Under the pieces are notes generated by a model, which was given only the letters and a program-made list of their open reading frames with translations, searched no databases and had not been told where the DNA came from. Of a DNA stretch of 64,000 nucleotides, positions 25,577 to 42,832 are shown in pieces. The stretch spans positions 1-64,000 of the forward strand of contig LADO01000051.1 of NCBI GenBank assembly GCA_000961595.1, given 5' to 3'. The first letter of the stretch is position 1; every line of letters starts with the position of its first letter. This stretch comes from Peptococcaceae bacterium BRH_c4b (GTDB lineage: Bacteria; Bacillota; Desulfotomaculia; Desulfotomaculales; Desulfocucumaceae). The position numbers were made by a program, and so were the translations under genes.

Positions 25577-26545
25577 TTAAAATCTTAATATTTTTCTGGT
25601 TTGTAGAAAGTACAACACTCCTTTTTCAAAAGCCCACTCAATATCCTGGGGGGTACTGAAGTAGGTCTCAATGGCCTTTCCCGTCTGAGCAAGTTTCACT
25701 AGCTGCTCAACGGTAAGAGACGGCTTTTTGCGCATATGAGGCTCAACTGCGTACTCTTTTCTGCCACAGCCCGTTTCATTGTCTACGCCAAACCTGATTT
25801 CCTTGCTGTTGATTTTTTTGTTTTTTACTTGAAGGCTTTCTTTATCCAGAAGGAAAAAATCACTCGTAACCTTTCCCGAAACAACCGCTTCCCCAAGCCC
25901 CCACGTTGATTCAATCACGATCTCATCCCGTGACAGATTGATAGGATTTCCGGTAAACATCACCCCGGCAACTTCCGGATCAACCATTCTCTGGATTACC
26001 GGAGCTATCACCGCCATAGCATGGTCAATCCCCTTCTGGTAACGCAGCATTGCCGCCCTGGCCGTCCACACGGAAGCCCAACATTCTTTAACCTTTTTAA
26101 ATACTTCTTCTGTTCCGCGAATATAGTGGTAGGTGTCCATCATACCGGGAAACGATGAGATAGCAGTCCCCTTGACCGCTACCGAAGAGCGCACTGCCAC
26201 GTAAGGTTCGGCCCCGCCCGCTCCGGCCAGGTCCTTGTATGCATTTGAGATTTGCTCATACTCAGACGGCAATTCGCATTTTGCTACTAAATCCCTAATC
26301 ATTTGGGTCTTTTGTTCAAATTCTTCATTGTAATTTTCAAAATTAATTGTTTGAACTATCTCATCAATTAGCAGTTCTAATTTATTGCATTTCAGCATAT
26401 CAAAATAGGCGTCGGAAACAATACAGAAGCCGGGGGGCACATTAAAACCAGCTTTTATAAGTTCTCCCAGATAAGTCCCTTTACCGCCACAACTTTCAAT
26501 CAAATCAACAGAGATCTCCGAAAAATCCATGATATATTTTGGCAC
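25577..26545 (-). CDS. ATP-grasp (PPDK_N) subunit of a split PEP-synthase-like phosphotransferase
   Basis: 322 residues from GTG 26545 after GGAGGGG. It is a stand-alone nucleotide-binding domain of the PEP synthase/PPDK type: GGKGTYLGELIKAGFNVPPGF, SSFPGMMDTYH, the ATP-binding AVRSSVAVKG and VIESTWGLGEAVVSG, and the end DIEWAFEKGVLYFLQTR. Full PEP synthases carry the swivelling His and PEP domains on the same chain. Here the His domain is in the gene at 27869-29581. The size and split match PpsB of phenylphosphate synthase (Thauera). It is the last gene of the operon. Confidence 0.85.
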   Translation of the reverse strand: MPKYIMDFSEISVDLIESCGGKGTYLGELIKAGFNVPPGFCIVSDAYFDMLKCNKLELLIDEIVQTINFENYNEEFEQKTQMIRDLVAKCELPSEYEQISNAYKDLAGAGGAEPYVAVRSSVAVKGTAISSFPGMMDTYHYIRGTEEVFKKVKECWASVWTARAAMLRYQKGIDHAMAVIAPVIQRMVDPEVAGVMFTGNPINLSRDEIVIESTWGLGEAVVSGKVTSDFFLLDKESLQVKNKKINSKEIRFGVDNETGCGRKEYAVEPHMRKKPSLTVEQLVKLAQTGKAIETYFSTPQDIEWAFEKGVLYFLQTRKILRF

Positions 26546-26618
26546 TGCTTACCCCTCCGTACTATGCTCTTCTTAACAGGCTCAATAAAATGGCGCGTTA
26601 ATACCAGGAGCAAATCCA

Positions 26619-27728
26619 CTATTTTGCATCAATCGTTTCCTGAATCTGGGTCATGGATTCAAAACCAGGAGGTACTTCCTCAGGACCAATAGGTGGACCG
26701 GGCGGAGCAAAAGGTATCTTCAGCCAGAAAAAATTATGCGCCAACAGAAGTACTGCAACCACATGCAAGGTATAGAACACGGAAATGACCGAAATGTCAA
26801 AAGGCAACCCGGCAGCGGTAACGTTCACCAAAATTGGTGTAAGAATCAGCCGCAGCAGCGGAATCCAGATAATTACGAGGATTGCAACCACTATAAGGTT
26901 ATACACACCTCTTTTAGGCTGAATATATTTGGCATTGGGATAATAACCGAAAATTACTGAATGAAACAGCGTCCAACCTATGATTGACCCGCCTATGGCT
27001 GCAAAGGAAAATGTCGGACTCATAAACTGCAGGGTGCCAACCCATGAAACATAGCCGAGTAAAACGGCTACTATTGTCAACACGATCTGGCCTGCCGGCT
27101 CACCTAGTTTATAAAAGGGATAACTTTGCATGGACAGCGCATTGCCGAATACCTGTACCCATACAATCACCCATACGGCAAGTCCCAACATGAAATCGGC
27201 CTGGAATAACCCTATAGGATCAAACGGCATACCGGCCCAGGGGGTATCTTTTAAATTCACCAATAAGAGCCATAGAATACTGGTTATAACCAAAATCACA
27301 ACAGCGCCCGTAATTAAATTAGTCACGCCACTCTTTTTGGCTACCGGGTAGGCTCCCCAGTTCAGCGCGTACCACAGGCTCGTCATAAATAACAGTATGC
27401 CGAAATAATTGGTAACTGGAAAAAGCGGTACAGCAGGCCAGATGTTAGTAACAGCCAGGGTATTTAACAATGCCAGGCCCAACCATAATAAGGTCATGGA
27501 AATCCCCGGCACCAATTTGCTCATACCCGGCTTCCATACGCCCTCCGGTGGAGCGACAGGCCACCCCCTGCCAATTACACCCAAAGCCACCAGCCAGAAC
27601 AGCCAAAAGAAGGAAGACGGGATATACAGCGTAAAAAACATTTTGGCCGGCACTAAATACATAATTAACCAACCAATAACCATTGCCCCAATAAACTGTA
27701 GCAGGCTTTCCTGAAAAGTTTTTTTCAT
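26619..27728 (-). CDS. Polytopic membrane protein of the catabolic operon
   Basis: 369 residues from ATG 27728, nine bases after AAGGAGG. I count about ten hydrophobic helices, many rich in Trp (LLWLGLALLNTL, AVWVIVWVQVFGN), and a Pro-rich cytoplasmic tail. I do not recognise a transporter family. It lies between the two subunit genes of the phosphotransferase, which suggests that it moves the substrate or anchors the enzyme. That is inference from gene order. Confidence 0.7.
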   Translation of the reverse strand: MKKTFQESLLQFIGAMVIGWLIMYLVPAKMFFTLYIPSSFFWLFWLVALGVIGRGWPVAPPEGVWKPGMSKLVPGISMTLLWLGLALLNTLAVTNIWPAVPLFPVTNYFGILLFMTSLWYALNWGAYPVAKKSGVTNLITGAVVILVITSILWLLLVNLKDTPWAGMPFDPIGLFQADFMLGLAVWVIVWVQVFGNALSMQSYPFYKLGEPAGQIVLTIVAVLLGYVSWVGTLQFMSPTFSFAAIGGSIIGWTLFHSVIFGYYPNAKYIQPKRGVYNLIVVAILVIIWIPLLRLILTPILVNVTAAGLPFDISVISVFYTLHVVAVLLLAHNFFWLKIPFAPPGPPIGPEEVPPGFESMTQIQETIDAK

Positions 27729-27868
27729 TTCCATAAACCTCCTTAAAATATTAAACAATTTCGATAATCAGGGAAAAGTCCTTCCGAGCATGATTAGCCT
27801 GTCAAATCATAACTGAAAGGACTTTTAAATTTGCTCCGGGAGATGCGGGAACACTCCCTCAAAATTGC

Positions 27869-29581
27869 TCACTCAACCACTGATTTTTGCAGAATCTCAA
27901 CGACACCATTATCTCCGTCCACCCTGATCAGGTCGCCGTTGTCAATAGAATTGGTTGCATTCCAACATCCAACGACAGCTGGAATCCGGTATTCTCTAGC
28001 CGCAATAGCCGCGTGTGTGAGCATTCCTCCAGTGTCGGTGACTACACCGGCAATCTTTGGAAACAGCGGGGTCCAGGCTGTAGATGTATAAGGACATACC
28101 AAGATTTCCCCAGGTTCAACTTTTGCAAAACCGTCAAAATGAGTTATTACACGGGCGCGGCCCTCAACAACACCAGGCGCTCCCTGGAAACCCTCCAGCC
28201 GCAGGGACTTCACCTGTTCACCTTTGGGATGGATGATGTCATCTATAATACCGAAAACTTTCACCCCGATGGGGTCGCTCATGACATCCGGAACCGCCCC
28301 TGCAGTTAATGGCGCTTCCTCTTCCTTTACTTTTTCCCAGTCTTCTGTCCGCTCTTTAACCAGGGATGGAACCAGCCTGCTGTGGTGGTAAATGGCTACA
28401 TCTTTTTCACGGGCCAGGTCACTTAAAATTTCGATCAGTTCACTGTAAGTGAGGAAAAACACATCTTCGGCGTTTTCCAGCAACCCGAACTGCTGGAGGC
28501 GCCTGCCGCAGGCAAGACCGGCATAACGAAGCCGGGCGGTAGATCCGGCATCGATATAAAAGCCATGGTCTTCCTGGAAGAAATACACACCTTCCGCCGC
28601 TTTCAGTAATCTATCAAAGGTTTTTTGCTCTTCCTCGAAAAGGCTATCTCTAAAATCGCGGATTGCTTCATCCCTTTCGCGTAACAATTTGGCCCTGGTC
28701 TCATCAAAGTCCCATCCGTCCCTTAACTTTCTGATGTATCCGCCCATAGTCTCAAGTACCGGTGCGGAGTCTTCCTTCCAGGTCGGGTAAATAACGTCAA
28801 GATGCCCGGCGGTAATCCTGTTGCCGTAAAATTGCAGGAATTCTTCAAGCCGGGCATACCACTGGTTACCCTCATCAGTACTTTTCAGACCGACAATTAA
28901 CGCCTGGACATCCTCCAGGAATTTGTCCCCGATCCCCAGTTTTTCCGCAAGCTGTGCCAGTCTGATCATTTCCCGGTCAGTTTTCGTCGCCATAGTATCG
29001 TAAGCGCCCCGCAGCATTACGGTAAATTCTTTCTCTTCAAGTCCATTTTTCTTGCAGAAATCTTCAAAGGTAAAATAAATAGCGTCGGCCATATACATTG
29101 TTGTAAAGTGAATTTCCCAGTTCCGGCGATTCATTTCGTTGGCCCACTTAATATATTCTAATAATTGAGCAATTTTCAACATGTCTGGATTAATGGCATC
29201 AACAATATTTAGTTCTTCTTTTACTTCGTTAATATATCCGGCGTAAAACTCATCCCAATGGTCAATGCAGTGTTCTAAATTTTTAACAAATTCCTGTTCC
29301 CTGCTCTTAATTTCATCCACGTCCCTGATTACAGCAAAGCCAAGATATACTCTGCCCTTATAAATCTTGACGTGAGCTCCCTTTGATCCGGGTAACATTA
29401 CCTTATTCGACGCATGATGGTACGACCAGGCGTGATGTTTTTGGACTGTTGTCATTCCGAATGGAGAAATAGGATACGGTTGATGCAGGTCATCCCTAAA
29501 CCAGAAGATATCCTCATCATCCGGGAACCTGAGTGTCCTTAGACTTGAGATGCTGCGGTCTATCCTTCCCCGCTCACCCAT
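27869..29581 (-). CDS. Swivelling-His subunit of a split PEP-synthase-like phosphotransferase (PpsA-like)
   Basis: 570 residues from ATG 29581 after GGGGG. The C-terminal domain is the PEP-utiliser mobile domain, with the phosphorylated His (about His523) in GGMLTHAAIAARE. The first 450 residues, with FLQFYGNRITAGHLDV, match the substrate-binding part of PpsA and of rifampicin phosphotransferase rather than the PEP barrel. With the ATP-grasp subunit it should form an ATP-dependent enzyme that phosphorylates an alcohol or phenol, releasing AMP and phosphate. Sizes match phenylphosphate synthase alpha and beta. The acceptor is unknown. Confidence 0.82.
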   Translation of the reverse strand: MGERGRIDRSISSLRTLRFPDDEDIFWFRDDLHQPYPISPFGMTTVQKHHAWSYHHASNKVMLPGSKGAHVKIYKGRVYLGFAVIRDVDEIKSREQEFVKNLEHCIDHWDEFYAGYINEVKEELNIVDAINPDMLKIAQLLEYIKWANEMNRRNWEIHFTTMYMADAIYFTFEDFCKKNGLEEKEFTVMLRGAYDTMATKTDREMIRLAQLAEKLGIGDKFLEDVQALIVGLKSTDEGNQWYARLEEFLQFYGNRITAGHLDVIYPTWKEDSAPVLETMGGYIRKLRDGWDFDETRAKLLRERDEAIRDFRDSLFEEEQKTFDRLLKAAEGVYFFQEDHGFYIDAGSTARLRYAGLACGRRLQQFGLLENAEDVFFLTYSELIEILSDLAREKDVAIYHHSRLVPSLVKERTEDWEKVKEEEAPLTAGAVPDVMSDPIGVKVFGIIDDIIHPKGEQVKSLRLEGFQGAPGVVEGRARVITHFDGFAKVEPGEILVCPYTSTAWTPLFPKIAGVVTDTGGMLTHAAIAAREYRIPAVVGCWNATNSIDNGDLIRVDGDNGVVEILQKSVVE

Positions 29582-29651
29582 TTTCTTAACCCCCTTCATT
29601 TTTATCGAGAGATATATGAATATTCTGAAATTTTTAATCATTAAATGACAA

Positions 29652-29936
29652 TTACTTGGATGATAACGTTTTTAATACTTTCTCTATAAATAACAATACG
29701 TCTTCCTGCCTTTGGCTGGCAGTCAACCCAGCTTGTTTTCTAATTTCCTCGAATTTACCCATTCTTTTTTCATCTTTTAAAACTAGTTCAGGTGTCACCC
29801 CTTCTTTCTTTAATATATTTTTGATGACAGCAATAACTTCATCAATACCGCCTGAGCTGTTATGTATATCGTACAAATATTCTGTTTTGTCTCCCAGTCT
29901 TCGGCTTTCTCTTTCCTGTAAAATAAAAGTATTCAT
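29652..29936 (-). CDS. Hypothetical small protein, 94 aa
   Basis: Start ATG 29936 overlaps the stop of the preceding gene by four bases (ATGA), so it is translationally coupled. It is charged and helical (IDEVIAVIKNILKKEGVTPE; RQEDVLLFIEKVLKTLSSK), with no Cys. It lies directly upstream of the PpsA-like gene and may be an accessory part of that enzyme. I do not recognise a family; it lacks the CBS domains of PpsC. Confidence 0.65.
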   Translation of the reverse strand: MNTFILQERESRRLGDKTEYLYDIHNSSGGIDEVIAVIKNILKKEGVTPELVLKDEKRMGKFEEIRKQAGLTASQRQEDVLLFIEKVLKTLSSK

Positions 29937-30283
29937 ATTATTGTCACCCGTTTTAATTCTTTTGGTTTTCGGTAGATTTCAACCAGTTCCGGATAATCTG
30001 AATCATTTCTTGCAAAAACAATCCTTCCCGAATCTTCCGGCCTGCTTATCACATAATACCTGATTAGTTTTGTAACATCCCCAGGAGCTTTTAATACTTC
30101 TTTCCACCCGTCACCCCATTCCAATAAAATATAACGGGCATCTTTCTCAGCATTAAGCGTATTTAGCTCAAACCCGCTGGAAGCCAATTCCAACAAAGTT
30201 GATTCCGATAAGTTACCCGGAGCTATTTCTATTTCACAACCGTCCCTGAATTGAACTATCACTTTTTGAATATCATCAACCAT
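29933..30283 (-). CDS. Hypothetical small protein, 116 aa
   Basis: Overlaps the HAD-like gene by eight bases and the next gene by four, a tight operon arrangement. The predicted fold is mixed alpha/beta (VQFRDGCEIEIAPGNLS; YILLEWGDGWKEVLKA; GRIVFARNDSDYPELV). No metal or catalytic motif is evident. Likely an accessory protein of the split phosphotransferase module, by position only. Confidence 0.6.
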   Translation of the reverse strand: MVDDIQKVIVQFRDGCEIEIAPGNLSESTLLELASSGFELNTLNAEKDARYILLEWGDGWKEVLKAPGDVTKLIRYYVISRPEDSGRIVFARNDSDYPELVEIYRKPKELKRVTII

Positions 30284-31022
30284 AATATTTGACCTTCCCC
30301 TTTATCAGCCTGGTTAGCTCTAAAAAGTTTGATACTTTATAGTGAGCTCCTGAAGGGCCGTAATCGATGTAGCCGGTATATTGAATAGTATAAAATCCTC
30401 TTTCTTTAGCCGGTATAATATCAGTTGCCGGTTTGTCGCCAATAATAACTGCTTCCGATGGCAATATCCCTTTTTGCTTCAGGTCCTCTTTTAATTTATC
30501 GTAAATTGTTCCAGCTTGTTTGGTCAGGCCCATATAACCAAGATCAATATTATTGTCCTTTACGTTAATTTTACCCTGGGGAGTGATCAATTCATTAAAG
30601 TAAGAAGTTAGATTGTTCTTCTTTAAGAACATACTAATAATATTTGCAGTCATTGCGCCAAGAGTTTTTTTCAACTCAGATACAACATTTATATCAATCT
30701 GCTCACTTTTTAAGTAGATAAGCGCTTCTTCCAAACCTTTACCCGGGCCAAGCAGCTCTTTTTCCATTATGTTGAATAAATCCATTGCTTCCTGCTCGCC
30801 ATCTAAAACATAATTGAGGATCTCATCCCGGTGTCCCTCTTTTATAATCCCGTATTCCACATATTTTTCCTTCAGGATTCTGTATTTCCGGATTGTTCTG
30901 CTTATTTGTTCCGGTTTACCTGTTTTCTTTAAAATATCACCGAAGAGTAAGGGATTTCTTAAATTGGTCGGCTCCATCAAGCATTGCCCAAAATCAAAGC
31001 CGCACCATTTGACCTCAATCAT
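30276..31022 (-). CDS. HAD-superfamily-like protein with altered motif I
   Basis: 248 residues from ATG 31022 after GGAAGGAG. The Rossmann core is HAD-like: motif I is CGFDFGQCLME, and motif IV is VIIGDKPATDIIPAKERGF. In motif I the second Asp of DxD, the general acid of HAD phosphatases, is replaced by Gly. The protein may therefore have lost or changed phosphatase activity. In this operon it could act on or sense the phosphorylated substrate made by the phosphotransferase; that is inference. Confidence 0.75.
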   Translation of the reverse strand: MIEVKWCGFDFGQCLMEPTNLRNPLLFGDILKKTGKPEQISRTIRKYRILKEKYVEYGIIKEGHRDEILNYVLDGEQEAMDLFNIMEKELLGPGKGLEEALIYLKSEQIDINVVSELKKTLGAMTANIISMFLKKNNLTSYFNELITPQGKINVKDNNIDLGYMGLTKQAGTIYDKLKEDLKQKGILPSEAVIIGDKPATDIIPAKERGFYTIQYTGYIDYGPSGAHYKVSNFLELTRLIKGKVKYYG

Positions 31023-31119
31023 TTCTTTTGCTCCTTCCAGAAGCACTTAAATTGCCACTGACTTTTGGAGGTTTTTTGGGAGGGACTATATTTTAAAAAG
31101 ACAGCCCTCCCAATTAACC

Positions 31120-32127
31120 CTACTTTATATTAAATATTTTTGCAGCATTGAGCCCTAAGATGGCGTCCTTATCTTCAGCAGAGATATCCAGGGCATTAAC
31201 GCTGCCGATAGCTCCTTCCGGATCTCCCACCCTGTGGGCGTAATCGGTGCCCAATACGATGTGGTCGGCCCCCATCTCCTGATAACAACACGTTACTGCT
31301 GCCTTGTTGAAATTGCATGTGTCCGGGTAGACCTGCGCCTTGTAGTACTCACTCGGTTTCTTCGGGAGTCCTTCATAACCCCATTCTTTGCCATATCCCT
31401 TGAAGGAATCGTCCATTCTTCTCAGCATGTAAGGGGCCATACCGCCCAGGTGGCAGTGAATAAGCTTGAGGTTGGGGTGCTTTTCCAGGACGCCGCTGAA
31501 AATAAGCGTGACCACGGCCATTGTGGTATCAAGGGTGTAGCCGAACAACTGAACGGGCAGTTTCACTTTTTTCATCACTTCATCGGTTAAGGGAGAGGCC
31601 GGGTGCACCAGGATTGGCAATTGATACTCTTCCGCCGCGGCATAAAGCTGCATGAACTCGGGGCTCGCCACGGGTTTGCCGTTGATATTGGAGAAGAACA
31701 TAATCCCCCTGGCGTAATCGCCCATCTCTTTTTTACATCTCTCAAGTTCCTTCATAGCCCGGTCCATATCCTGGTAAGGGAGAGTAATATAGAAATAAAA
31801 TCTCCCCGGATATTTCCGGCAAGTCTCCGCCATGCTGTCATTAACCCGTTTAGCCCATACCTCACCCTCCTCGGGGCTAAGGAGTTCCACACTGGGAATG
31901 GTTTGGCTTAAAACCTGTATGTCCAGGCCGGCCTTATCCAAATCCTCAACCCTGGCAGCGGGATCATAGTGCCCTGGCCTGTCAATGTGAGCGCAGATTA
32001 CGTCATTAACATAGGCAAGATAAGAAGTCGGACCGGTTTTAACCAATCTCGGATTGGCATTTTTTTGCAAATACTCGAGCCATTCTACAGGATATAAGTG
32101 GTTATGGACATCAATTGACTTAACCAT
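31120..32127 (-). CDS. ACMSD-type amidohydrolase / decarboxylase family protein
   Basis: 335 residues from ATG 32127 after AAGGAGG. Metal-dependent TIM barrel of amidohydrolase family 2: metal ligands HNH in IDVHNHLYP, His in LVHPASP, His in IHCHLGG, and Asp in LGTDYAHR. The family includes reversible, non-oxidative decarboxylases such as gamma-resorcylate and salicylate decarboxylase, as well as hydrolases. Beside an aryl-acid ligase gene, ortho-carboxylation or decarboxylation of a phenol is a reasonable guess, but hydrolysis cannot be excluded. Confidence 0.85.
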   Translation of the reverse strand: MVKSIDVHNHLYPVEWLEYLQKNANPRLVKTGPTSYLAYVNDVICAHIDRPGHYDPAARVEDLDKAGLDIQVLSQTIPSVELLSPEEGEVWAKRVNDSMAETCRKYPGRFYFYITLPYQDMDRAMKELERCKKEMGDYARGIMFFSNINGKPVASPEFMQLYAAAEEYQLPILVHPASPLTDEVMKKVKLPVQLFGYTLDTTMAVVTLIFSGVLEKHPNLKLIHCHLGGMAPYMLRRMDDSFKGYGKEWGYEGLPKKPSEYYKAQVYPDTCNFNKAAVTCCYQEMGADHIVLGTDYAHRVGDPEGAIGSVNALDISAEDKDAILGLNAAKIFNIK

Positions 32128-32207
32128 TATTTTCCTCCTTCTTGTACGCTTATTTTTGTTTTACGTGTTTTCGGTATAGTGTTTATTTGGTAAATTCACC
32201 TCCGTTT

Positions 32208-33395
32208 TCAGATTTTGACTATAAAGGACTCCCCTTCACCAATACCGCCGCATATTGCCATTAATCCATATTTACCGCCTCTTCTCCGCAATTCATAAAT
32301 CAAGGTCATCAGCAACCTGCCGGCTGAGGCTCCTGTCGGGTGGCCAATGGCTATTGCACCCCCATTAACGTTAGTTTTATCCCTAATTTTTTCAATTTTA
32401 GCGGGATCATTTTTACCTAAAATTTTAGTTGATACTAAAGGCATCGCGGCAAAGGCTTCATTTATTTCCACAAGGTCCATTTGCCCGATATTCATGCCTG
32501 CTTTTTTTAATGCTTTTTGCGCTGTATAGGCCGGGATCGAGGCGATCCGCTGCGGGTGGCCCGACCCCTGGGCGTGGGCAATTATTGTAGCCAGAGGGGA
32601 TATTCCCAGTTCATCCGCTTTTTGCCTGGACATCAGCAGCAGAGCGGAAGCCCCGGTATTAAGACCGGGCGCATTACCGGCGGTTACCGTTGGGCTGCCG
32701 TAAACCGTGGACAAACCTGCCAGTGCTTCAAGAGTCGTGTCGGGACGCGCCCCCTCGTCCTGACTCATCATTACAGGGGCGCCTTTTTTTGACGGTATCT
32801 CCACCGGCATTATTTCATCATTGAATTTTTGGGCCGCCAGGGCCTGGCCGTATAACTTCTGACTTCTCAGCGCCCACCGGTCCTGGTCTTCCCTGGTGAG
32901 CCCGTGCTCCACTGCTTCTTTACCTGCCTGGACCGCCCGGGGCACTCCCGTATACGGGCAGGTCACCACGACTATGTCTTTTAAGACTACTTCACCTATC
33001 CTTTTGCCCCACCGCAAGTCATCCAGGAAATACGGAACCTGGCTTAAATTCTCTGTTCCCCCGCCTATGGCTATTTCAACTTCCCCGGCTTTGATGGCCC
33101 TGTATGCCGTCGCGATGGCCACGGATGAAGAACAGCATGCCCGGTCCATGGTCGCCGAATTAACGTAGTCCGGGAGTCCGGCCTTTAAAGTAATCTGCCG
33201 GGCGATGGAACGGTTGGAACAGGGCATATTTGCCCCCATGTAAACCTCTTCCACTGCTTCAGGGGATACAGACGCCCTTTTGATAACCTCTTTCACAACC
33301 ATCGACCCCAGGTCAACTGTGCTAAAATCCTTGAGTATACCGCCAAATTTGCCAAAAGGAGTCCTCACGGCGCTGACAATCACTACTTCGTTCAT
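32208..33395 (-). CDS. Thiolase (acetyl-CoA acyltransferase)
   Basis: 395 residues from ATG 33395 after GGAGG. The active-site Cys is in MDRACCSSSVAIA (Cys88), the His in GGAIAIGHPTGASAG, and the second Cys in AICGGIGEG. It cleaves 3-oxoacyl-CoA with CoA in the degradative direction. It follows the CoA transferase gene by 72 bases and belongs to the catabolic operon. Confidence 0.93.
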   Translation of the reverse strand: MNEVVIVSAVRTPFGKFGGILKDFSTVDLGSMVVKEVIKRASVSPEAVEEVYMGANMPCSNRSIARQITLKAGLPDYVNSATMDRACCSSSVAIATAYRAIKAGEVEIAIGGGTENLSQVPYFLDDLRWGKRIGEVVLKDIVVVTCPYTGVPRAVQAGKEAVEHGLTREDQDRWALRSQKLYGQALAAQKFNDEIMPVEIPSKKGAPVMMSQDEGARPDTTLEALAGLSTVYGSPTVTAGNAPGLNTGASALLLMSRQKADELGISPLATIIAHAQGSGHPQRIASIPAYTAQKALKKAGMNIGQMDLVEINEAFAAMPLVSTKILGKNDPAKIEKIRDKTNVNGGAIAIGHPTGASAGRLLMTLIYELRRRGGKYGLMAICGGIGEGESFIVKI

Positions 33396-33466
33396 ATGCC
33401 ATGCCTCCAAAATATTTTTAATTGCTGCTGCCTTTCATGTTCATCCTACTGCGAGGATGGTTTGAG

Positions 33467-34687
33467 TCAGATCAATTGTTCAAGCCGCAATTTTTCTATT
33501 TTCTCGCTGTCATAACCCAGTATTTCCGATAGCAATGCTTCTGTGTGTTGACCCAGCCCCGGCGCCGGCAGAGCGGTGGAATCCACCGGCACGTTCTTCA
33601 TTTTGATGGGGTTACCGACGAGTTTTACTTTTCCGGCAACCGGATCTTCAACCTCGATCCACATCGACCGGGCGCTGGCCTGCGGGCATTCATACACTTC
33701 CTTAGCTGACCTCACCGGTCCGGCCGGCACGCCGGCCTCAAGCAGTATTCCGGTAATTTCCTCTGTGGTCTTCCCACTCATCCATTCGTTGATAACCGGG
33801 TCCAAAGCCTGCCTGTTTTTTGCCCGCTTCATGGCGTTATCGAATTGAGGATCTTTAAAGAGTTCCGGTTTACCGACAGCATTACAAAATTTTTCCCACA
33901 TGCTTGATTCAAGAACAATCAAAGCCACGTAACCGTCGCTGGTCTTGTAAGCCCCCCATGGATGGATCAGTGTTTCCTTGCCCCGAGACATGACATTACC
34001 GGTTAATGAATATAGAGTATTGGCCCGTTCAGTCAGGGTCATCATCACGTCGAACATGGCAACGTCGATATATTCACCCTGGCCGGTTAACTGGCGTTTA
34101 TATAACGCCAGGACGATGGCATAAGCCGTCAGCATACCCGGTACAATATCACCGAAAGCAATCATCGGATGTATAGGCTGGCCATTTTCCTCACCAATCA
34201 GGTTCATTAACCCGCCCATCGCCTGGATGACTATGTCGTAGGCCGGCCGCTGGGAATAAGGGCCGGCGTAACCCTCCATTTGCCCGAAGCCGCTGATAGC
34301 GGCATGCACCAGGCGGGGGTTCAACGCTTGCAACTGTTCATAACCCAGGCCCATCTTAGTTAGTGTACCCGGCTTCAAATTTTCGACCAGAACATCCGAT
34401 GCTTTGATAAGCTCTTTAAATATTAACCGTGCTTGCTCACTTTTCAGATTCAGGGTCAGACTCTTTTTGTTACGGTTAAACCGCATAAAGTAACCGCTGG
34501 TTTTTTCCCCACGCTCGTTTTTTAGAATTGGTCCGGGTTCCCGGGCCACGTCGCCTTTACCGGGCGGTTCGATCTTGATCACCTCGGCGCCTGCGTCAGC
34601 CAGCATCATGGTGCAAAAAGGCGATGAAACTTGTGTTTCCACTGCTAAAACCCTGATCCCGCTTAGCGGCTTAGTTCCACTTAGCAT
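33467..34687 (-). CDS. CaiB/BaiF-family (class III) CoA transferase
   Basis: 406 residues from ATG 34687, with GAGGGGG upstream; the longer frame has no ribosome site. The N-terminus PLSGIRVLAVETQVSSPFCT and the catalytic-Asp region RPAYDIVIQAMGGLM are characteristic of class III transferases such as formyl-CoA transferase and BbsEF. It moves CoA between carboxylic acids. In the operon it may activate a dicarboxylic or branched acid. The gene follows the B12-binding subunit gene by only 22 bases. Confidence 0.93.
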   Translation of the reverse strand: MLSGTKPLSGIRVLAVETQVSSPFCTMMLADAGAEVIKIEPPGKGDVAREPGPILKNERGEKTSGYFMRFNRNKKSLTLNLKSEQARLIFKELIKASDVLVENLKPGTLTKMGLGYEQLQALNPRLVHAAISGFGQMEGYAGPYSQRPAYDIVIQAMGGLMNLIGEENGQPIHPMIAFGDIVPGMLTAYAIVLALYKRQLTGQGEYIDVAMFDVMMTLTERANTLYSLTGNVMSRGKETLIHPWGAYKTSDGYVALIVLESSMWEKFCNAVGKPELFKDPQFDNAMKRAKNRQALDPVINEWMSGKTTEEITGILLEAGVPAGPVRSAKEVYECPQASARSMWIEVEDPVAGKVKLVGNPIKMKNVPVDSTALPAPGLGQHTEALLSEILGYDSEKIEKLRLEQLI

Positions 34688-34709
34688 GATACTACAACCC
34701 CCTCGGAAA

Positions 34710-35108
34710 TTATGGCTGCTCACACCTGCATGAGATAAATTCAACGATCTCTTTAGTGTCTGTACCCGGGCCAAACACTTCAGCCACTCCCATATTCTTT
34801 AAATGCTCTATATCTTCGTCTGGGATAATGCCGCCGGCAACTATAATAATGTCTGTAATTCCCCTGGCTTCCAGTATTTTTGCGATTTTGCCGATTAAAA
34901 CGTTGTGCGCTCCAGACAGGAGACTTACTCCAATCGCATGAACATCCTCTTGCACGGCAGCTTCCACTATCTGTTCCGGCGTTTGCCGGAGTCCGGTATA
35001 AATTACTTCCATGCCTGCGTCTCTCAGTGCCCTTGCCACCACCTTGGCGCCCCGGTCGTGGCCGTCAAGGCCAGGCTTGGCGACCAATACCCGTAACTGA
35101 TAGCCCAT
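34710..35108 (-). CDS. Cobalamin-binding subunit of a methylmalonyl-CoA-mutase-type enzyme
   Basis: 132 residues from ATG 35108 after GGGAGG. Carries the B12-binding motif with lower axial His in [13 protein letters not shown] (DxHxxG) and the [10 protein letters not shown] and [11 protein letters not shown] loops of the flavodoxin-like fold. It pairs with the large subunit gene just upstream. The same small-subunit architecture occurs in isobutyryl-CoA, 2-hydroxyisobutyryl-CoA and archaeal methylmalonyl-CoA mutases. Confidence 0.94.
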
Positions 35109-35145
35109 GTTATCGACCTCCCGCAATTCTTCAGCAGGATTTTTT

Positions 35146-36816
35146 CTAATAAACTGTCATGGCCTTATACTCTCCGTAAACCTCCCGCAGCACGTCGCTG
35201 ATTTCGCCAAGAGTAGCGTAATCCCGCACAGCTTCTATAATGGCAGGGATTACGTTTTCATTATGCCCGGCTGCTTCTTTAACCCGGAACAGCCTCGATT
35301 TAACCAAACTGTTATCCCGTTTTTCCTTGAGTTCCCGCAGGCGCTTGATCTGCCTTGCTTCAGAGGCCGGGTCTGTCTTGAAGACAGGAATCCTTGCTTC
35401 TTCCCGGCTTCGGAACCGGTTTAAGCCGACAATTACCTTTTCGCTGTTTTCTACCTGTTTCTGAAAGCGATAAGCCGCATCACTGATCTCTTTTTGAATC
35501 AGACCCTCCTGGATGCACTTGACGGCTCCCCCCATATTGTCAATCTTAGAAATCTCTTCAAATACCCGTTTTTCTATCTCTTTGGTAAGCTGTTCGAGGA
35601 CATATGAACCTCCCAGCGGATCCGCGGTATTGGCTGCACCGCTCTCATAAGCGATGATTTGCTGTGTCCGTAAAGCAACGGTCACCGCTTCTTCAGTAGG
35701 AATTGCAAAAGCCTCGTCATATGATGAGGTAGCCAGGGTTTGGACTCCGCCAAGCACTGCCCCCAGTGCCTCAATAGTTACCCGCACAATGTTATTCAGC
35801 GGCTGCTGGGCGGTAAGTGTCCCGCCGCATGTATAAGCAAAAATACTTAATTTCATTGATTCAGGATGCCCGGCTTGATATCTTTCTTTCATCAGGCGGG
35901 CCCAGATGCGCCTGACTGCCCTGAACTTGGCAATCTCCTCTATAAAGTCGATGTGGGCGCCTAAAAATGTATAGAATTTAGGAGCAAAATCATCAATATT
36001 AATGCCCCGGCTTAATATTTCATCAATGTAGCAAATAGCATTGGCCAGGGTGAAAGTCAGTTCCTGAATAGCCGTGCTCCCGCTCTCTCTGATGTGATAG
36101 CCGCTGATAGCCATTGGCGTCCAGTTGGGGAGGTTTTTTGCGCAATACTCAATAACATCACCGGCAAGCTTAACTGCTGCTTTGGGAGGATAAATATATG
36201 CTCCCCGGCCTATGTATTCTTTTAAAGGGTCATTTTGAATTAATATCTTTATGTCATTGGGGTTAATTCCATTTTTCTCAGCAAAAGCCACAAGCATAGC
36301 AACTGTCACCGGGCCTATGGCGTTGGCGGTGGTCCGGATCTGGCGAACCTGATGCAAAGGTATATCTTTAAATAGAATTTCAATATCTGCAAGGGAATCA
36401 ATAGCGACTCCGACTCTGCCTACTTCACCTTCCGCTAAAGGGTGGTCGGAATCATAGCCAATTTGGGTAGGCAGATCAAGGGCGATGGAAAATCCGGTCT
36501 GACCCTGTTCTAGCAAATATTTGTATCTTTTGTTGGCATCTTCGGCTGAACCAAAACCGGAATACTGTCCCATAACCCAGAGATTAGAACGGTACATAGT
36601 TGGAGTTATACCACGGGTGTAAGGGTATAACCCCGGGTAACCCTCTTTTTTCATGAATCCTTCATTGCCGTCAGCGAGTGCTTCAGGACCATAAACTGCT
36701 GTTAATTCAATACCGGAATTGGTCAGGAATTTCTCTTGCCTTTCAGGATTACCCAGAATAAACTCACCTTTTGCTTGATCCCATTCCTTATTTATCTCTG
36801 AAATGTGTTCTTTCAT
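35146..36816 (-). CDS. Acyl-CoA mutase large subunit (methylmalonyl-CoA mutase family)
   Basis: 556 residues, start ATG 36816 after AGAGGTG. TIM-barrel substrate domain with [17 protein letters not shown] and [16 protein letters not shown] (His that contacts the substrate). At the position equivalent to MCM Tyr89 it has Tyr (MGQYSGFG), and at the Arg207 position Arg ([12 protein letters not shown]). Isobutyryl- and hydroxyisobutyryl-CoA mutases have Phe/Ile and Gln there, so a carboxyl-bearing acyl-CoA is the likelier substrate. The usual RQYAGF is changed to GQYSGF, so methylmalonyl-CoA itself is not certain. Confidence 0.93.
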
Positions 36817-36930
36817 ATTTGCACCTCTGGGACTTATTTAAATTCCATCTCGGTAATCTGTATAAAAAAGCAAACCGCTAAGAAGCTCAGACCATCACAG
36901 CGTATCATTTGATTCAAGCGATAGCGGCAG

Positions 36931-37719
36931 TCAGGATAATCTGAATTTTGAAAAATCTGCCTTCCTTTTTTCTTTAACTGCGCTTAAACCTTCTTGCAGC
37001 TGCTCTGTCCCCCACAGGCTGTTCAATAAAGCCGCACCGTGATTCATTGAAGGATAAAGCATATCGGTTTCAAAATTGAGCGAAAGTTTGGCCATGCGAA
37101 TTGATTGCGGGCTCATCTCCAAAATGCGCTGACACCATTCTTCAACTTCCAAAAATAACTTTTCATGAGGAACGACTTTATTGACGAGGCCCATTCTCTC
37201 AGCCTCCTCAGCAGAGTAAAGGTTGCTTAAATAAATCATTTCCCTTGCTTTTTTTTCGCCAACTATTCCCGGTAGCAGTTGCGTACAGCCCCAGATTGGG
37301 CAGGCCCCCACTTTTGTGCCCGCCTGGCCGAATTGCGCGCGATCGGAAGCGATTGTCAAATCGCAAAATACGTTTATTTCATTGCCGCCACCGATACAAT
37401 ACCCGTTAATAGCGGCAATAATTGGTTTGCCCATACTGCGCATCAAATTTGAAAGAGTCAGCAATTTCTTGTTCCACTTGGGGCCGCTCTTTTTATCAAG
37501 CTCCCTCATAGCCGCTATATCGCCACCGACACAGAAAGCCTTGTCACCCGCTCCGGTGATTACCACAACGCCGATGCTATCGTCGTTATCAGCGTCGTTA
37601 AACGCCCTGGTCAGGTCATCAAGCGTTTCCCACCTGAAAACGTTAAGGACTTCCGGCCTATTGATGGTAATCTTTGCTACACCGGCTTTTTTTTCAAAAA
37701 GAACATCTTGAAATTTCAC
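36931..37719 (-). CDS. BadI/MenB-like member of the enoyl-CoA hydratase family
   Basis: 262 residues from GTG 37719 after GGAAGGGG. Crotonase fold with the oxyanion-hole segments AFCVGGDI and GYCIGGGNEINVFCDLTI. The later FGQAGTKVG, GEKKAREMIYL and the end EGLSAVKEKRKADFSKFR resemble BadI (2-oxocyclohexanecarboxyl-CoA hydrolase) and MenB more than ordinary hydratases. A BadI-type reaction would hydrolytically open a ring beta-keto thioester. Plain enoyl-CoA hydration remains possible. Confidence 0.85.
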   Translation of the reverse strand: MKFQDVLFEKKAGVAKITINRPEVLNVFRWETLDDLTRAFNDADNDDSIGVVVITGAGDKAFCVGGDIAAMRELDKKSGPKWNKKLLTLSNLMRSMGKPIIAAINGYCIGGGNEINVFCDLTIASDRAQFGQAGTKVGACPIWGCTQLLPGIVGEKKAREMIYLSNLYSAEEAERMGLVNKVVPHEKLFLEVEEWCQRILEMSPQSIRMAKLSLNFETDMLYPSMNHGAALLNSLWGTEQLQEGLSAVKEKRKADFSKFRLS

Positions 37720-37792
37720 TAATAGTTACCCCTTCCTTAGACCAGTGCTACCGGCCTCATTTTTAACGACTTAAAGCAATCACTAAAAGAAC

Positions 37793-38866
37793 TTATTTTT
37801 GTAGTTTTTTCTCTGCCACTATACATTCCACCGGTTCCCACCGCTGGTCTCTTTCCAGGCAGGTGTTGCAGTATACACATGGGATTATATCTTCTTGCCT
37901 GCCCTCTTTTTGCTTGATTATCCAGTCAGGGTCCGCCAGTAAAGGCCTGCATACGCCAATCAGGTCGGCTTCCCCCTGAGTTAATATTTTCCCGGCAAGT
38001 TCGAAGGAATTTATTTTACCCGAAACAATGACCGGTACACCCAGAGGCGCCAGTTCCTCCCTGATACCCCTGGCCAAATACACATGGCATCCAAACGGCA
38101 GATTGGCAGTCGGCATACTTCTTGACCCGCTGTATCCGCTATACCAGTTACCGTCTTCCGTTTTCCCCCCCGCAGAAACGCTCAGGTAGTCTAACCCCTT
38201 TTCGGCCATCAACCTGGCAATAACTTTTGTCTGCTTTAAGCTGTTTCCACCCATCACAAATTCTTCGCCGCTGATCCTGGCCCCGATGCAATAATCGTCG
38301 CCAAGTTTTTCCCGGCACATCTCAATAATTTCAGTGACTATACCAGACCTGCCCTTTGGACTGCCGCCATATTCATCCGTTCGCTTGTTCAAGAGAGAAA
38401 TAAAGGAAGAAAGGGTGTAACTGTGCGCAGCATGCAGCTCAATCGCATCAAAGCCTACCTTTTTGGCCCTGACTGCCGCCTGGACAAAATCATCCTTGAC
38501 CTGTTTGATATCTTCCAGGGTTAGCTCTTCAACTTTTTGCTTCCACCCGGAACGCGACTGTTTAACAAAATGAATCAATTGAATAGAAATTTTTGATCCG
38601 GCGTCATGGACGGCCTGCACCAGTTTTTCCAATCCGGGCATATACATATCATCACTGATCCTCAACAGTTTGGGGCTTTTTCTTGCCAATACACCCGTAG
38701 CTTCAAGGATGGTTAAGGCTACACCCCCTTGGGCCCTGCGCTGGTGGCGTTCTATAAGTTGCTCGGTGACAAAACCGTCCTCTGTCGCAAGCCAGCTCAC
38801 CATCGGAAGCCAGACTATCCTGTTTCTCAGGTCCAGGTTTTTATAACTTACCGGTGTAAGCAGCAT
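37793..38866 (-). CDS. Old-yellow-enzyme family reductase with Cys cluster, short form
   Basis: 357 residues from ATG 38866 after GAGGTG. FMN TIM barrel of the OYE/2,4-dienoyl-CoA reductase type (catalytic region FDAIELHAAHSYTLSSFISLLNKRTDEYGG). The C-terminus has CVYCNTC followed by a Cys eleven residues later, like the 4Fe-4S motif of dienoyl-CoA reductases but one residue shorter (CxxCxxC). The FAD/NADH-binding domains found in the ~650-residue enzymes are absent, so electrons must come from another protein. OYE-type enzymes reduce naphthoyl-CoA and unsaturated acyl-CoAs. Confidence 0.88.
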   Translation of the reverse strand: MLLTPVSYKNLDLRNRIVWLPMVSWLATEDGFVTEQLIERHQRRAQGGVALTILEATGVLARKSPKLLRISDDMYMPGLEKLVQAVHDAGSKISIQLIHFVKQSRSGWKQKVEELTLEDIKQVKDDFVQAAVRAKKVGFDAIELHAAHSYTLSSFISLLNKRTDEYGGSPKGRSGIVTEIIEMCREKLGDDYCIGARISGEEFVMGGNSLKQTKVIARLMAEKGLDYLSVSAGGKTEDGNWYSGYSGSRSMPTANLPFGCHVYLARGIREELAPLGVPVIVSGKINSFELAGKILTQGEADLIGVCRPLLADPDWIIKQKEGRQEDIIPCVYCNTCLERDQRWEPVECIVAEKKLQK

Positions 38867-38932
38867 TTAAACACCTCATTTCTAATTTAGGATTTCATTT
38901 TAACGCTAGGCTGAAAAACATCGTTTAAATAC

Positions 38933-40603
38933 TTATAATTGTTCGCTTGTTTGAATTTCCTCTTCAATTTTCTTTTCAATAGCTAACCGCAAATCTTTCT
39001 TTTGTATTTTTCCGACATTGGTTAGAGGAAATTGCTCTATTATCTCCAACCGCTCAGGTAGTTTGAATTTGGCAATCTTTTTCTCCAGCATAAATGTATT
39101 TAATTCGTTCAAGGTTAATGTTTCATTATTCTTTAATGTTACATACGCGCAACTCCTTTCGCCTAACAGGGGATCGGGCATGGCAACTACTGCAGCATTA
39201 TCTACCTTTGGGTGGGCTAAAATTAGGTTCTCCACTTCCTCAGCACTGATTTTTTCTCCCCCCCTATTAATAAGATCTTTTTTCCTGCCCTCGATAATTA
39301 AGCAACCGCTAACTGGTTCCAATCTCACTATATCGCCGGTCTTGTAGTAACCATCCCTGGTAAAGGCCTTTTCGTTGTAATCCGCTACCTGATAGTAACC
39401 TCTGATCGTATATGGTCCCCGGCATATAAGTTCCCCTGTTGCACCCGGAGATACTTCCACTTCTTCATCATCCACTATCTTTATTTCATCAGCAGGTGAT
39501 ACCGGACGGCCAACAGTATTAAATACAACTTCTTCCAGGTCACTCATATTTGTCATAGTCAGCAAACCCTCAGCCATTCCAAATTGCTGAACCAAATTAC
39601 AACCTAATTCAGGTTTTATTCTCTTGGCCACTTCCGGGTTTAATTTGGAACCACCGGAAATTATGATCTTTAAAGAAGACAGGTTATAATTTTTCCTTTC
39701 TTGATAATTTAATAAAGTAATAATAAGTGCAGGTACCAGCGGCAAAATGCTTATATTTTCTTTTTCAATTAATTTGCAAAGATTCTCTACATCGGTAGAT
39801 GCAGTTATAACAACCTTGCCTCCATTTAACAGTGTTCCCATTAATCCGGGGCAGGCCAGAGTCATGTTATGGGCCAGCGGAGCAATAGCGAGATATACTG
39901 AATACAAATTGAGCCCGACAGGCAGACCTGTCATCCTGGCAGTATAAAGATAATCGTTATGAGTGCGCGGGATTATTTTTGGTAAGCCTGTTGTACCTCC
40001 GGAAAGTAAAAACACAGCAACTTCCATGGGATCGGGACGATACTTATCCAGCAACTCGTTATTGGCGCAGTTTTCAATTTTATCCTCAAGAAACTGGTTA
40101 ATTAGAAATTGTCCTGTGCGGCATTCCCGGCCAACCACAAAAATGTTGTTAATAGAGGGAACCGCCTGACTTAACTCCTGGGCCAATTCCAGGTAATTGT
40201 GCTTGTGGTAATAATCGGGGATTAAGTAACCTTTAGCCCCGCATTTGTCAGCTATATAGGCTATTTCTGTGAACCTGTGCGGAGGCAGGCACATTACCGG
40301 GATTACGCCTATTTTTAAAAAAGCGAAATAACAATAGACAAATTCCGGTATGTTCGGCAGTTGGACGATTATCCTGTCCAGAGGCCTCAGGCCAAGATTT
40401 AAAAAGTGTTCTGCTATCCGGTCCGATCCGGATTTCAACTGGCTATAACTTATACGCTGATCACCATACACAAGAGCCTCCCGGGTAGTAAAGATTTCAG
40501 CGGCCCTGTCGAAAGCTTCACCAATCGGGATATTGTTCCAGTACCCTTTTGCAACGTAACCATCAGCAATCTTTTCCGGCCAGGGAACACAACCTTTTAA
40601 CAT
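38933..40603 (-). CDS. Aryl-acid AMP ligase (EntE/DhbE-like)
   Basis: 556 residues from ATG 40603, eight bases after CAGGAG. ANL-superfamily adenylating enzyme with the P-loop LSGGTTGLPKIIPRTH, the A8 region YYKTGDIV and the A10 lysine region LTNVGKIQKKDL. The opening LKGCVPWPEKIADGYVAKGY is typical of 2,3-dihydroxybenzoate and salicylate AMP ligases. Here, without siderophore genes, it more likely makes an aryl-CoA for degradation. It is the first gene of the operon, 71 bases from a sigma-54 promoter. Confidence 0.88.
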   Translation of the reverse strand: MLKGCVPWPEKIADGYVAKGYWNNIPIGEAFDRAAEIFTTREALVYGDQRISYSQLKSGSDRIAEHFLNLGLRPLDRIIVQLPNIPEFVYCYFAFLKIGVIPVMCLPPHRFTEIAYIADKCGAKGYLIPDYYHKHNYLELAQELSQAVPSINNIFVVGRECRTGQFLINQFLEDKIENCANNELLDKYRPDPMEVAVFLLSGGTTGLPKIIPRTHNDYLYTARMTGLPVGLNLYSVYLAIAPLAHNMTLACPGLMGTLLNGGKVVITASTDVENLCKLIEKENISILPLVPALIITLLNYQERKNYNLSSLKIIISGGSKLNPEVAKRIKPELGCNLVQQFGMAEGLLTMTNMSDLEEVVFNTVGRPVSPADEIKIVDDEEVEVSPGATGELICRGPYTIRGYYQVADYNEKAFTRDGYYKTGDIVRLEPVSGCLIIEGRKKDLINRGGEKISAEEVENLILAHPKVDNAAVVAMPDPLLGERSCAYVTLKNNETLTLNELNTFMLEKKIAKFKLPERLEIIEQFPLTNVGKIQKKDLRLAIEKKIEEEIQTSEQL

Positions 40604-40673
40604 TTGAAATACTCCTGTTCTCATATTGATTTTGCCGGTTTGTGGGTCTTAAAGCTTTATGCTGCATCCTATC

Positions 40674-40689
40674 CGCAATAATTATGCCA
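40674..40689 (-). promoter_or_regulatory. Sigma-54 (-24/-12) promoter for the catabolic operon
   Basis: Minus strand reads TGGCATAATTATTGCG, fitting the consensus TGGCAYRNNNNTTGCW at every position but the last. GG and GC are twelve bases apart, as required. It points toward the ligase gene (start 40603), and a sigma-54 activator gene lies divergently beside it. Confidence 0.82.
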
Positions 40690-40873: not shown

Positions 40874-42832
40874 ATGGAATCAATTCAAATAAGAAAAGAA
40901 AGCACGTTTAAAGCCTGGAATATTTTTGTGACAGTCGGAAATATTCAATCTTCTGTCAGACCAGGAATAGCAGAATCCTGGCTTCGCTGCAAACAAATGG
41001 AAATCAATCCATATACTTTTAAAATACTAAGGATGGACTCAGCCACAATCGAAACAGAGCTTCGTGCCCACAAAAATTTAATTGCGACTTCCGTCCCAAT
41101 CATGAAAAATTTATTTAGTTTTGTTGACGGCTCAGGTTTTTTAATTTCCCTCGCCAATAACAAGGCCATGATCTTGGATATTGTGGGAGAAAACAAAATT
41201 ATCAAGAAGGCCGGCATTCACATCGGCGATGTCTGGACCGAAGAATCCATGGGCACAAATGCCATAGGATTATGTGTGAAGACCCAAAAACCAATCCAGG
41301 TATTTGCTTCCGAGCATTTTTTAAAGTCAAGCCATGATTGGACATGTTCATCCGCTCCTATAATCGACGATGATTCAAACCTCATCGGTGTCCTGACCAT
41401 GACCGGTGAATGCGATAAGGCCCACCTCCACACACTTGGCATGGTAGTAGCCGGAGTTTATGCAATTGAAAATAGCCTTCGCATGCAAAAATCATTTGAT
41501 AAAGTCGCCATTTCCGACGCTTATAAAGCTGCAATTATGGAATCTATTGATGAAGGTATACTTGCTTTAAATAAAGACGGTGAAATCAACCATATTAACA
41601 ATACTGCCAAAAAAATACTGAAAATAGAGCACTCCTTGGACGAAATGATCTCCAGGCCAATAAGCCAGATTATTGGGCCGCACCATCCGCTTACAGTTAA
41701 AATTGAAAAATGGTCAAAGCGAGTAAATGGGGACACAGTTTTTATCGATGAGGGGAGCTTTACCGTAACTCATAAGTTGATCTATTCCGAAGATAAAAAT
41801 ATTATTGGGTTGGTACTTGTATTGAGAGAGATGAAAATCATGAAAAACCTGGTGAACAGAATGGTTGGCGCCAGGGCTACCTTCACCTTTAATGATTTAA
41901 TCGGTAAAAATATTGATTTTTTATCAGCTGTGAATCTGGCCAAAACTGCTTCTAACAGTATTTCAAATGTTTTATTATTAGGAGAAAGTGGAACCGGCAA
42001 AGAGATTTTTGCCCAGGCAATTCACAACTCAAGCAAACGGAGAGCAGGCCCGTTTTTGGCAATAAACTGTGCCGCTTTACCGAGGGGATTAATTGAAAGT
42101 GAATTGTTTGGCTATGCTGAGGGGGCTTTCACCGGGGCCAAGAAAGGTGGCAACCCCGGAAAATTTGAATTGGCTGACGGGGGAACGTTATTTTTAGATG
42201 AGATAGGTGAAATGCCTCTTGAACTGCAAGCAACACTGCTTAGGGTATTACAAGAAAATTCCATCGTAAGAATTGGTGGTAAAGAAACAATATCAATAGA
42301 TGTAAGGATAATTGCCGCTACAAATAAAATTCTTGCTGAAGAAATCAAAATAGGAAACTTCCGAAAAGATCTTTACTATAGATTAAATGTATTTACCATC
42401 AGCATACCTCCATTGCGGGAAAGACCCGACGATATAAACATCCTGGCTATACATTTTCTTGACAAGTTAAACCAACGGCTAAATAAGAATGTAAAACGGA
42501 TCGGTAATGATGTGCTTAAAATTTTTAATAATTATCGCTGGCCTGGAAATGTTCGGGAGCTTCAAAATGTATTGGAGCGGACAGTTAACTTAACTAATGG
42601 TGAAGCATTGCTTCCTAATTGCCTTCCTGACTTTATTAATAATTCAAAGGAAATTAAAAATAACTCAAATGAGCACGAGAATGATATAATACCCCTGAAG
42701 GAATATGAAAAGCAGTTAATCCTTACCCTATTGGATGAAAACAAAGGCAATCGAACAAAAGTTGCCAGAGCTATAGGTATTTCGAGAACCACACTGTACC
42801 GTAAATTTGTTGAATATAACATCGAAATATAA
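40874..42832 (+). CDS. AcoR-type sigma-54-dependent transcriptional activator
   Basis: 652 residues. N-terminal GAF-type sensor ([14 protein letters not shown] to about 205, as in AcoR/DhaR), a PAS domain (about 215-320), the AAA+ sigma-54 interaction domain with Walker [19 protein letters not shown] (sigma-54 contact loop) and Walker [12 protein letters not shown], and a Fis-type helix-turn-helix at the C-terminus ([17 protein letters not shown]). Divergent from the catabolic operon and separated from it by the sigma-54 promoter. It probably senses the growth substrate or a derivative and turns the operon on. Confidence 0.95.

Follow-up and report, generated by a model that had tools for sequence, protein, structure and literature searches.

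A conserved operon of Peptococcaceae bacterium BRH_c4b pairs a predicted two-component dikinase with an amidohydrolase and a salicylate-type ligase

We analysed a 64,000-nucleotide window of the Peptococcaceae bacterium BRH_c4b genome (contig LADO01000051.1, positions 1 to 64,000, assembly GCA_000961595.1) and find in it a conserved operon that is a variant of the two-component aryl dikinase systems, a class that is itself already known. The two subunits encoded at 25577-26545 and 27869-29581 very probably form a two-component small-molecule dikinase with ATP-dependent kinase activity, as judged from their domains and aligned residues, and they add a clade that by sequence comparison lies outside all characterised two-component dikinases. 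For the operon as a whole we favour, tentatively, phosphorylation-driven ortho-carboxylation of a phenol.

An initial annotation, made from the sequence alone, had described a block of six genes between 25577 and 31022 on the minus strand. The open reading frames (ORFs) are all located there, but the block had been drawn too short, since the adjacent amidohydrolase gene was left out and the operon reaches 40624. The genes of the block are:

25577-26545, minus strand: ATP-grasp (PPDK_N) subunit, PpsB/HpeI/CreI-like, 322 residues (Pfam 274.9 bits; residue alignment; orthologue in Pelotomaculum terephthalicicum, 59% identical)
26619-27728, minus strand: membrane protein of about ten helices, 369 residues, probable uptake protein (orthologues in P. 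terephthalicicum, 72%, and in genome G417, 56%)
27869-29581, minus strand: substrate-binding and swivelling-His subunit, PpsA/HpeH/CreH-like, 570 residues, with His523 (PEP-utilizers 88.6 bits; PRK08296; alignment with rifampicin phosphotransferase; tree)
29652-29936, minus strand: putative accessory protein of 94 residues (51% identical orthologue; low ratio of nonsynonymous to synonymous divergence, dN/dS; kept 4-base overlap)
29933-30283, minus strand: putative accessory protein of 116 residues (65% identical orthologue; kept overlaps)
30276-31022, minus strand: HAD-superfamily protein, candidate phosphate-releasing partner (HAD_2, E=3e-7; 73% identical orthologue)
31120-32127, minus strand: Amidohydro_2 protein of the ACMSD / 5-carboxyvanillate / gamma-resorcylate decarboxylase kind, candidate metal-dependent ortho-carboxylase (Pfam 121 bits; 75% identical orthologue)

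The product of 25577-26545 consists of PPDK_N alone, with the ATP-grasp domain on its own chain, and its K22, VRSS segment and C-terminal E/Q/R residues align with those of phosphoenolpyruvate (PEP) synthase and rifampicin phosphotransferase (RPH). In the product of 27869-29581, Pfam finds just the PEP-utilizers mobile domain, at the C-terminus, and no PEP/pyruvate barrel of the kind that a PEP synthase has. This subunit aligns nearly full length to the NCBIfam PRK08296 models and partially to RPH. His523, at the end of T515-D-T-G-G-M-L-T-H523, occupies the position of the catalytic His in alignments with PpsA and RPH, and the TDTGGMLTH segment matches the published His-loop motif of two-component dikinases, T/SxxGGxxxH (PMC12167813). 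The traits of such enzymes, a separate ATP-grasp chain and a separate substrate-binding and swivel chain that carries the motif and lacks the barrel, are found here, and the earlier assignment to a split PEP-synthase-like phosphotransferase, with a PPDK_N-only protein and a swivelling-His protein, is borne out. In PpsAB and HpeHI the beta-phosphate of ATP is passed to the swivel His and on to the phenol, yielding AMP and phosphate (PMC12167813); alignment places the residues for this type of transfer in both subunits. One feature differs from the characterised two-component dikinases, all of which are reported to have a PEP-synthase-like ATP-grasp loop as a common trait, not as a definition (PMC12167813): the loop in the block subunit is SSFPGMMDT, which is PPDK-like, and might indicate phosphate-dependent, pyrophosphate-forming chemistry. 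Canonical-type PpsB proteins within the Desulfotomaculales likewise carry a PPDK-like loop. This loop (SMPGxxDT / SSFPGMMDT) occurs at residues ~117-142 of the 25577-26545 product and in the PpsB proteins of loci L041-L046, L065 and L066.

We placed the kinase in a maximum-likelihood tree of 24 proteins, in which the Hpe, Acv and Cre loci were assigned by their gene neighbours and by published gene lists (PMC9618137). All Pps, Hpe, Acv and Cre pairs fall in one clade and the His subunit of the block in the other, with full support for the dividing branch; the ATP-grasp subunits of the two genomes that carry the block form a branch of their own. The sisters of the His subunit (support 93/87) are short PpsA-like proteins of other Firmicutes (L061, L062 and L063), which are its nearest relatives (37-40% identical), with a similar length in L061 and L062. 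These relatives adjoin genes for PpcA/PpcB-type carboxylases, UbiX and a CoA ligase, and the clade is thereby tied to carboxylation, although their clusters differ from the block in that the carboxylase is UbiD-type and the ligase of another kind. Canonical PpsA/PpsB pairs are encoded together with PpcB-type UbiD proteins in other members of the order; their PpsA proteins share 44-60% identity with Azoarcus PpsA and 27-29% with the His subunit of the block. At L063 (7645-11983) one PpcABDG cluster is accompanied by two divergent PpsA-like genes, one from each main clade, with a gene for a 200-residue membrane protein between them; a similar gene is present in L041 (11807-12403). In the PpcABDG cluster of L066 (6621-14036) the PpcD-like gene is present as a tandem pair, and the PpsA-like protein there forms a very divergent branch, 25% identical to both references.

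Conservation was assessed in 113 genomes of the order and in a sample of 398 genomes of the phylum. Within the order, the membrane protein had matches in two other genomes, that of P. terephthalicicum JT (G484, NZ_JAKNBL010000030.1), which belongs to a different family, and G417. The initial annotation had made its proposal conditional on conservation of the gene block across genomes, and the same set is present in P. terephthalicicum, where a divergent activator gene is followed by genes for the ATP-grasp subunit, amidohydrolase, HAD protein, 116-residue protein, 94-residue protein, His subunit and membrane protein, and further on by those for a crotonase, a dehydrogenase, a ligase and an Old Yellow Enzyme (OYE). 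The block proteins are 51-75% identical between the two species, and the overlaps of the small genes with their neighbours, by 8 and 4 bases, occur in both. The seven block proteins have dN values of 0.17-0.37 with dS from 1.1 to saturated, a sign of purifying selection, and the block genes therefore encode real, selected proteins. The ATP-grasp gene is the last of the operon in BRH_c4b and the first in P. terephthalicicum; given this difference in gene order, the recent copying of a single segment does not fully account for the shared set. The same two of the 113 genomes have orthologues of both the His subunit and the amidohydrolase, and none has one without the other, which makes their association more than a chance one; the phylum sample contains no further genome with these orthologues. 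A scan of public-genome contigs with two weak HAD peptide patterns returned P. terephthalicicum alone, a result that says little on rarity outside the phylum. The block itself is not described in the papers found by our literature search.

By spacing and direction, 14 same-strand genes (25577-40624, minus strand) resemble a single catabolic operon. Its remaining genes and the adjoining regulatory features are:

32208-33395, minus strand: thiolase (ORF sequence; homologue fragment in P. terephthalicicum)
33467-34684, minus strand: CaiB/Frc-type CoA-transferase (ORF sequence)
34710-35111, minus strand: cobalamin-binding small mutase subunit (ORF sequence)
35146-36816, minus strand: acyl-CoA mutase large subunit (closest solved relative, 2-hydroxyisobutyryl-CoA mutase)
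36931-37719, minus strand: BadI/MenB-type crotonase, candidate for cleavage of a cyclic beta-oxoacyl-CoA (NCBIfam badI 250 bits, menB 241 bits, both below cut-off)
37793-38866, minus strand: OYE-type reductase with a C-terminal Cys cluster, without the C-terminal dinucleotide-binding part (Pfam Oxidored_FMN; BaiCD 236 bits)
38933-40624, minus strand: salicylate / 2,3-dihydroxybenzoate-type acyl-adenylate (CoA) ligase with His252-Asn253 (TIGR02275 558 bits)
40674-40689, minus strand: sigma54-like promoter TGGCATAATTATTGCG (9/12 positions, GG and GC kept)
40874-42832, plus strand: sigma54-dependent AcoR-like activator, divergent from the operon (63% identical orthologue in P. terephthalicicum)

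Two of these products, the amidohydrolase and the ligase, together with the rest of the operon, allow a guess at the substrate. The best matches of the amidohydrolase in the Protein Data Bank (PDB) are ACMSD and the 5-carboxyvanillate, uracil-5-carboxylate and gamma-resorcylate decarboxylases. It branches separately, sharing about 30% identity with plasmid-borne relatives. Both orthologues conserve H8xH10, H175 and D295, candidate metal ligands (HxH, H, D). The ligase scores 558 bits with TIGR02275, against 344 bits for the next kind outside the dihydroxybenzoate ligases, and its best PDB match is a salicylate-AMP ligase. The His252-Asn253 pair, which presumably contacts the 2-hydroxyl of the substrate as in DhbE, is kept in P. 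terephthalicicum and missing in the ligases of phenol clusters. By these sequence features the ligase is of the kind that accepts ortho-hydroxybenzoates, unlike the ligases of phenol clusters.

Comparison with the known systems shows both the relationship and the departures. The PpsAB(C)/PpcABCD system (Thauera aromatica; Azoarcus sp. KH32C, L038) likewise has its ATP-grasp and His subunits on separate chains, and it has in common with the block the His loop, a HAD partner, a small accessory subunit, a CoA ligase and a sigma54 activator. In the phenol pathway clusters the aryl phosphate carboxylase consists of a UbiD-type protein with a HAD-like and a small subunit, whereas the block operon has neither UbiD nor UbiX, and an amidohydrolase instead. 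CreHI, HpeHI and AcvAB share with the block the two components, the domain split and the lack of PpsC, but their type of His subunit is 27-30% identical to that of the block and belongs to the other clade. The Hpe cluster, too, encodes enzymes for the phosphorylated phenol, a phosphatase and a carboxylase (PMC9618137), but the carboxylase is a biotin enzyme, HpeCBA; Cre-type clusters have a P450. The initial annotation had proposed a new member of the class with a different substrate. Membership holds, but novelty as a class does not, as CreHI and HpeHI are characterised split kinases that act on other substrates and lack PpsC (PMC9618137, PMC12167813). The amidohydrolase-superfamily ortho-(de)carboxylases (gamma-resorcylate, 2,3-dihydroxybenzoate, 5-carboxyvanillate, ACMSD) belong to the same superfamily as the block protein, and several carboxylate phenols beside the hydroxyl; the papers found describe none in combination with an ATP-dependent kinase.

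In the pathway that we propose, the 25577-26545 protein would load a phosphate from ATP onto His523 of the 27869-29581 protein, and the dikinase would phosphorylate the hydroxyl of a growth substrate, brought in by the membrane protein, that is probably phenolic. The amidohydrolase would then carboxylate next to the hydroxyl, in place of the UbiD-type phenylphosphate carboxylase of known pathways, and the HAD protein would release the phosphate and hence the phenolate, with the two small proteins as accessory subunits. Hydroquinone, catechol and phenol are candidate substrates, and would give gentisate, 2,3-dihydroxybenzoate and salicylate, respectively; the data favour none over the others. 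The ligase may convert the ortho-hydroxybenzoate to its CoA thioester, to be followed by reduction, BadI/MenB-like ring opening and degradation; ring reduction would turn an ortho-hydroxybenzoyl-CoA into a cyclic beta-oxoacyl-CoA, the type of compound on which BadI/MenB enzymes act. We assign the carboxylation to the amidohydrolase because it is the only carboxylase-type gene in the block and its top solved relatives are decarboxylases, an assignment that we hold at somewhat less than even. Metal-dependent enzymes of the superfamily ortho-carboxylate phenols reversibly, but with an unfavourable equilibrium and at a large excess of bicarbonate (2-3 M) (PMC6644310), so that an ATP-driven partner would be chemically sensible. 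Hydroquinone is tempting as a substrate: its carboxylation to gentisate in anaerobes has been established at the level of physiology, and the carboxylase is called uncharacterised (PMC3727088, citing Gorny and Schink 1994). Degraders of hydroquinone are known among the Desulfobacterota.

Several observations weigh against this scheme, which is built on gene content and homology. The block is carried by just two genomes, and the branch that joins its His subunit to the UbiD-linked clade (93/87) falls below the strict support limit. No relationship to PpcD or PpcG is detectable for the HAD protein and the small proteins. The ring-cleavage crotonase, mutase, thiolase and CoA-transferase genes do not adjoin the block in P. 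terephthalicicum, where the contig ends soon after. An aryl phosphate masks the hydroxyl by which substrates of amidohydrolase decarboxylases bind the metal, and the phosphate must therefore leave first. Finally, the amidohydrolase might instead decarboxylate or hydrolyse.

The last point leads to the alternative that survives best, to which we give roughly a third of the weight: the phenol would be phosphorylated for another purpose, such as trapping in the cell or provision of a leaving group for dehydroxylation, and the amidohydrolase would simply decarboxylate or hydrolyse at another step of the pathway. In an aerobic pathway, 4-cresol is phosphorylated by CreHI, whose clusters have a P450 and no carboxylase, and for HpeHI a scavenging role has been proposed (PMC12167813); amidohydrolase decarboxylases, moreover, energetically favour CO2 release. 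Carboxylation is nevertheless favoured by the neighbours of the His subunit's nearest relatives and by the ortho-hydroxybenzoate ligase of both operons, which is expected if the carboxyl is added first. It is unlikely that the kinase phosphorylates a non-aromatic compound, alicyclic or branched, at an enol or alcohol group, the amidohydrolase opening a ring or removing a carboxyl and the mutase and BadI-like enzyme degrading an alicyclic acid. PEP synthase-type enzymes do phosphorylate enolates, and the operon includes a B12 mutase near 2-hydroxyisobutyryl-CoA mutase, a BadI-like crotonase and a thiolase; these and the CoA-transferase, however, lie outside the conserved core, whereas the aryl-acid ligase lies inside it, and phenols or aniline are the substrates of those two-component dikinases that have been characterised. 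An ordinary phenylphosphate synthase, with its carboxylase elsewhere in the genome, is nearly refuted despite the homology to PpsA and PpsB. The genome, rated 100% complete, has a single UbiD gene, about 25% identical to PpcA/PpcB and not Ppc-like, and 25577-40624 includes no gene for the CBS-domain subunit PpsC; the initial annotation had noted that PpsC and UbiD-type phenylphosphate carboxylases are absent here. The His subunit, 28% identical to PpsA, falls outside the PpsA/HpeH/CreH clade. Inactivation of an antibiotic or xenobiotic by phosphorylation is the least probable, for although RPH (5FBS, 5HV1) has all three domains (ATP-grasp, substrate-binding and swivel) and the catalytic His, it is a single chain with an antibiotic substrate, and the genes here share a sigma54-type catabolic operon with those for acyl-CoA enzymes.

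Returning to phosphorylation-driven ortho-carboxylation, the dikinase and the metal-dependent amidohydrolase may together, though this wider claim is more doubtful, represent a further natural ATP-driven phenol carboxylation, with ortho rather than para products, and supply for example the genes of the hydroquinone carboxylase. As CO2-fixing enzymes the metal-dependent ortho-carboxylases are attractive, yet the equilibrium of the reaction disfavours carboxylation (PMC6644310). If the proposal is true, a natural ATP push on an ortho-carboxylase would be of practical and mechanistic interest, the amidohydrolase family would gain a role not previously seen for it, carboxylation on a kinase-tagged phenol, and the block may supply genes missing for a decades-unexplained anaerobic pathway, making the hydroquinone-to-gentisate question testable. 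Strain JT is said to use several hydroxylated aromatics.

The gene between the two kinase subunits had been described as encoding a ten-helix membrane protein, and the structure model indeed has ten long helices, although at a mean predicted confidence (pLDDT) of 42 the helix count alone is usable. Pfam, NCBIfam and PDB searches returned no match for this protein. In G417 its orthologue is encoded directly downstream of a molybdenum hydroxylase of the xanthine dehydrogenase type, with no kinase there; we therefore reject it as a kinase component, and the suggestion that phosphorylation takes place at the membrane is not supported. This kinase-free occurrence fits a transporter better, and an uptake protein is the most likely role. 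An NtrC-type regulator and a sensor kinase are encoded upstream of the hydroxylase/membrane-protein pair in G417 (L024, 10469-13962).

The two small coupled genes and the DxG-type HAD gene were also correctly recognised. The HAD protein begins with FDFG, in which the nucleophile D10 is kept and the second Asp is replaced by G12; motifs II and IV are kept. Profile comparisons were negative for close kinship of the HAD protein with PpcD or HpeD and for a relationship of the 94- and 116-residue proteins to PpcG, and both candidates were rejected. Family searches gave no match for the 116-residue protein, and its structure model is poor.

Among the downstream genes, the mutase large subunit aligns with the Tyr and Arg of the methylmalonyl-CoA mutase type. 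Identity as a 2-hydroxyisobutyryl-CoA mutase was rejected, as the typical residues are not kept; the roles of the residues in both comparisons are those we assume for them. The crotonase lies outside the conserved core, the best BadI-like match in P. terephthalicicum being 35% identical, and in that genome seemingly decayed OYE- and thiolase-like fragments lie between the block and the downstream genes (L022, 15876-16151). A canonical benzoyl-CoA reductase was sought in BRH_c4b and rejected: of several BcrBC/BzdNO-like sets, those scanned fell far below curated cut-offs. Several sets resembling benzoyl-CoA reductase or 2-hydroxyacyl-CoA dehydratase are found at L090 (4067-8317), L091 (5043-9320) and L092 (2354-5612), two of them with paired activases; their 450-residue subunits had no NCBIfam match at 1e-40.

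The first gene of the operon is that of the ligase, and some 65 bases upstream of it is the promoter candidate TGGCATAATTATTGCG. The score of this candidate is modest, as 65 windows in 128 kb reach 9/12, and a sigma54 look-alike, TGGCATCATTTTTGCA, occupies the matching divergent position in P. terephthalicicum, where the activator is also divergent from the block. Elsewhere in the window, at 3002-5930, a CheA-like gene is apparently split by a frameshift near 4250-4300 into two overlapping ORFs in different frames.

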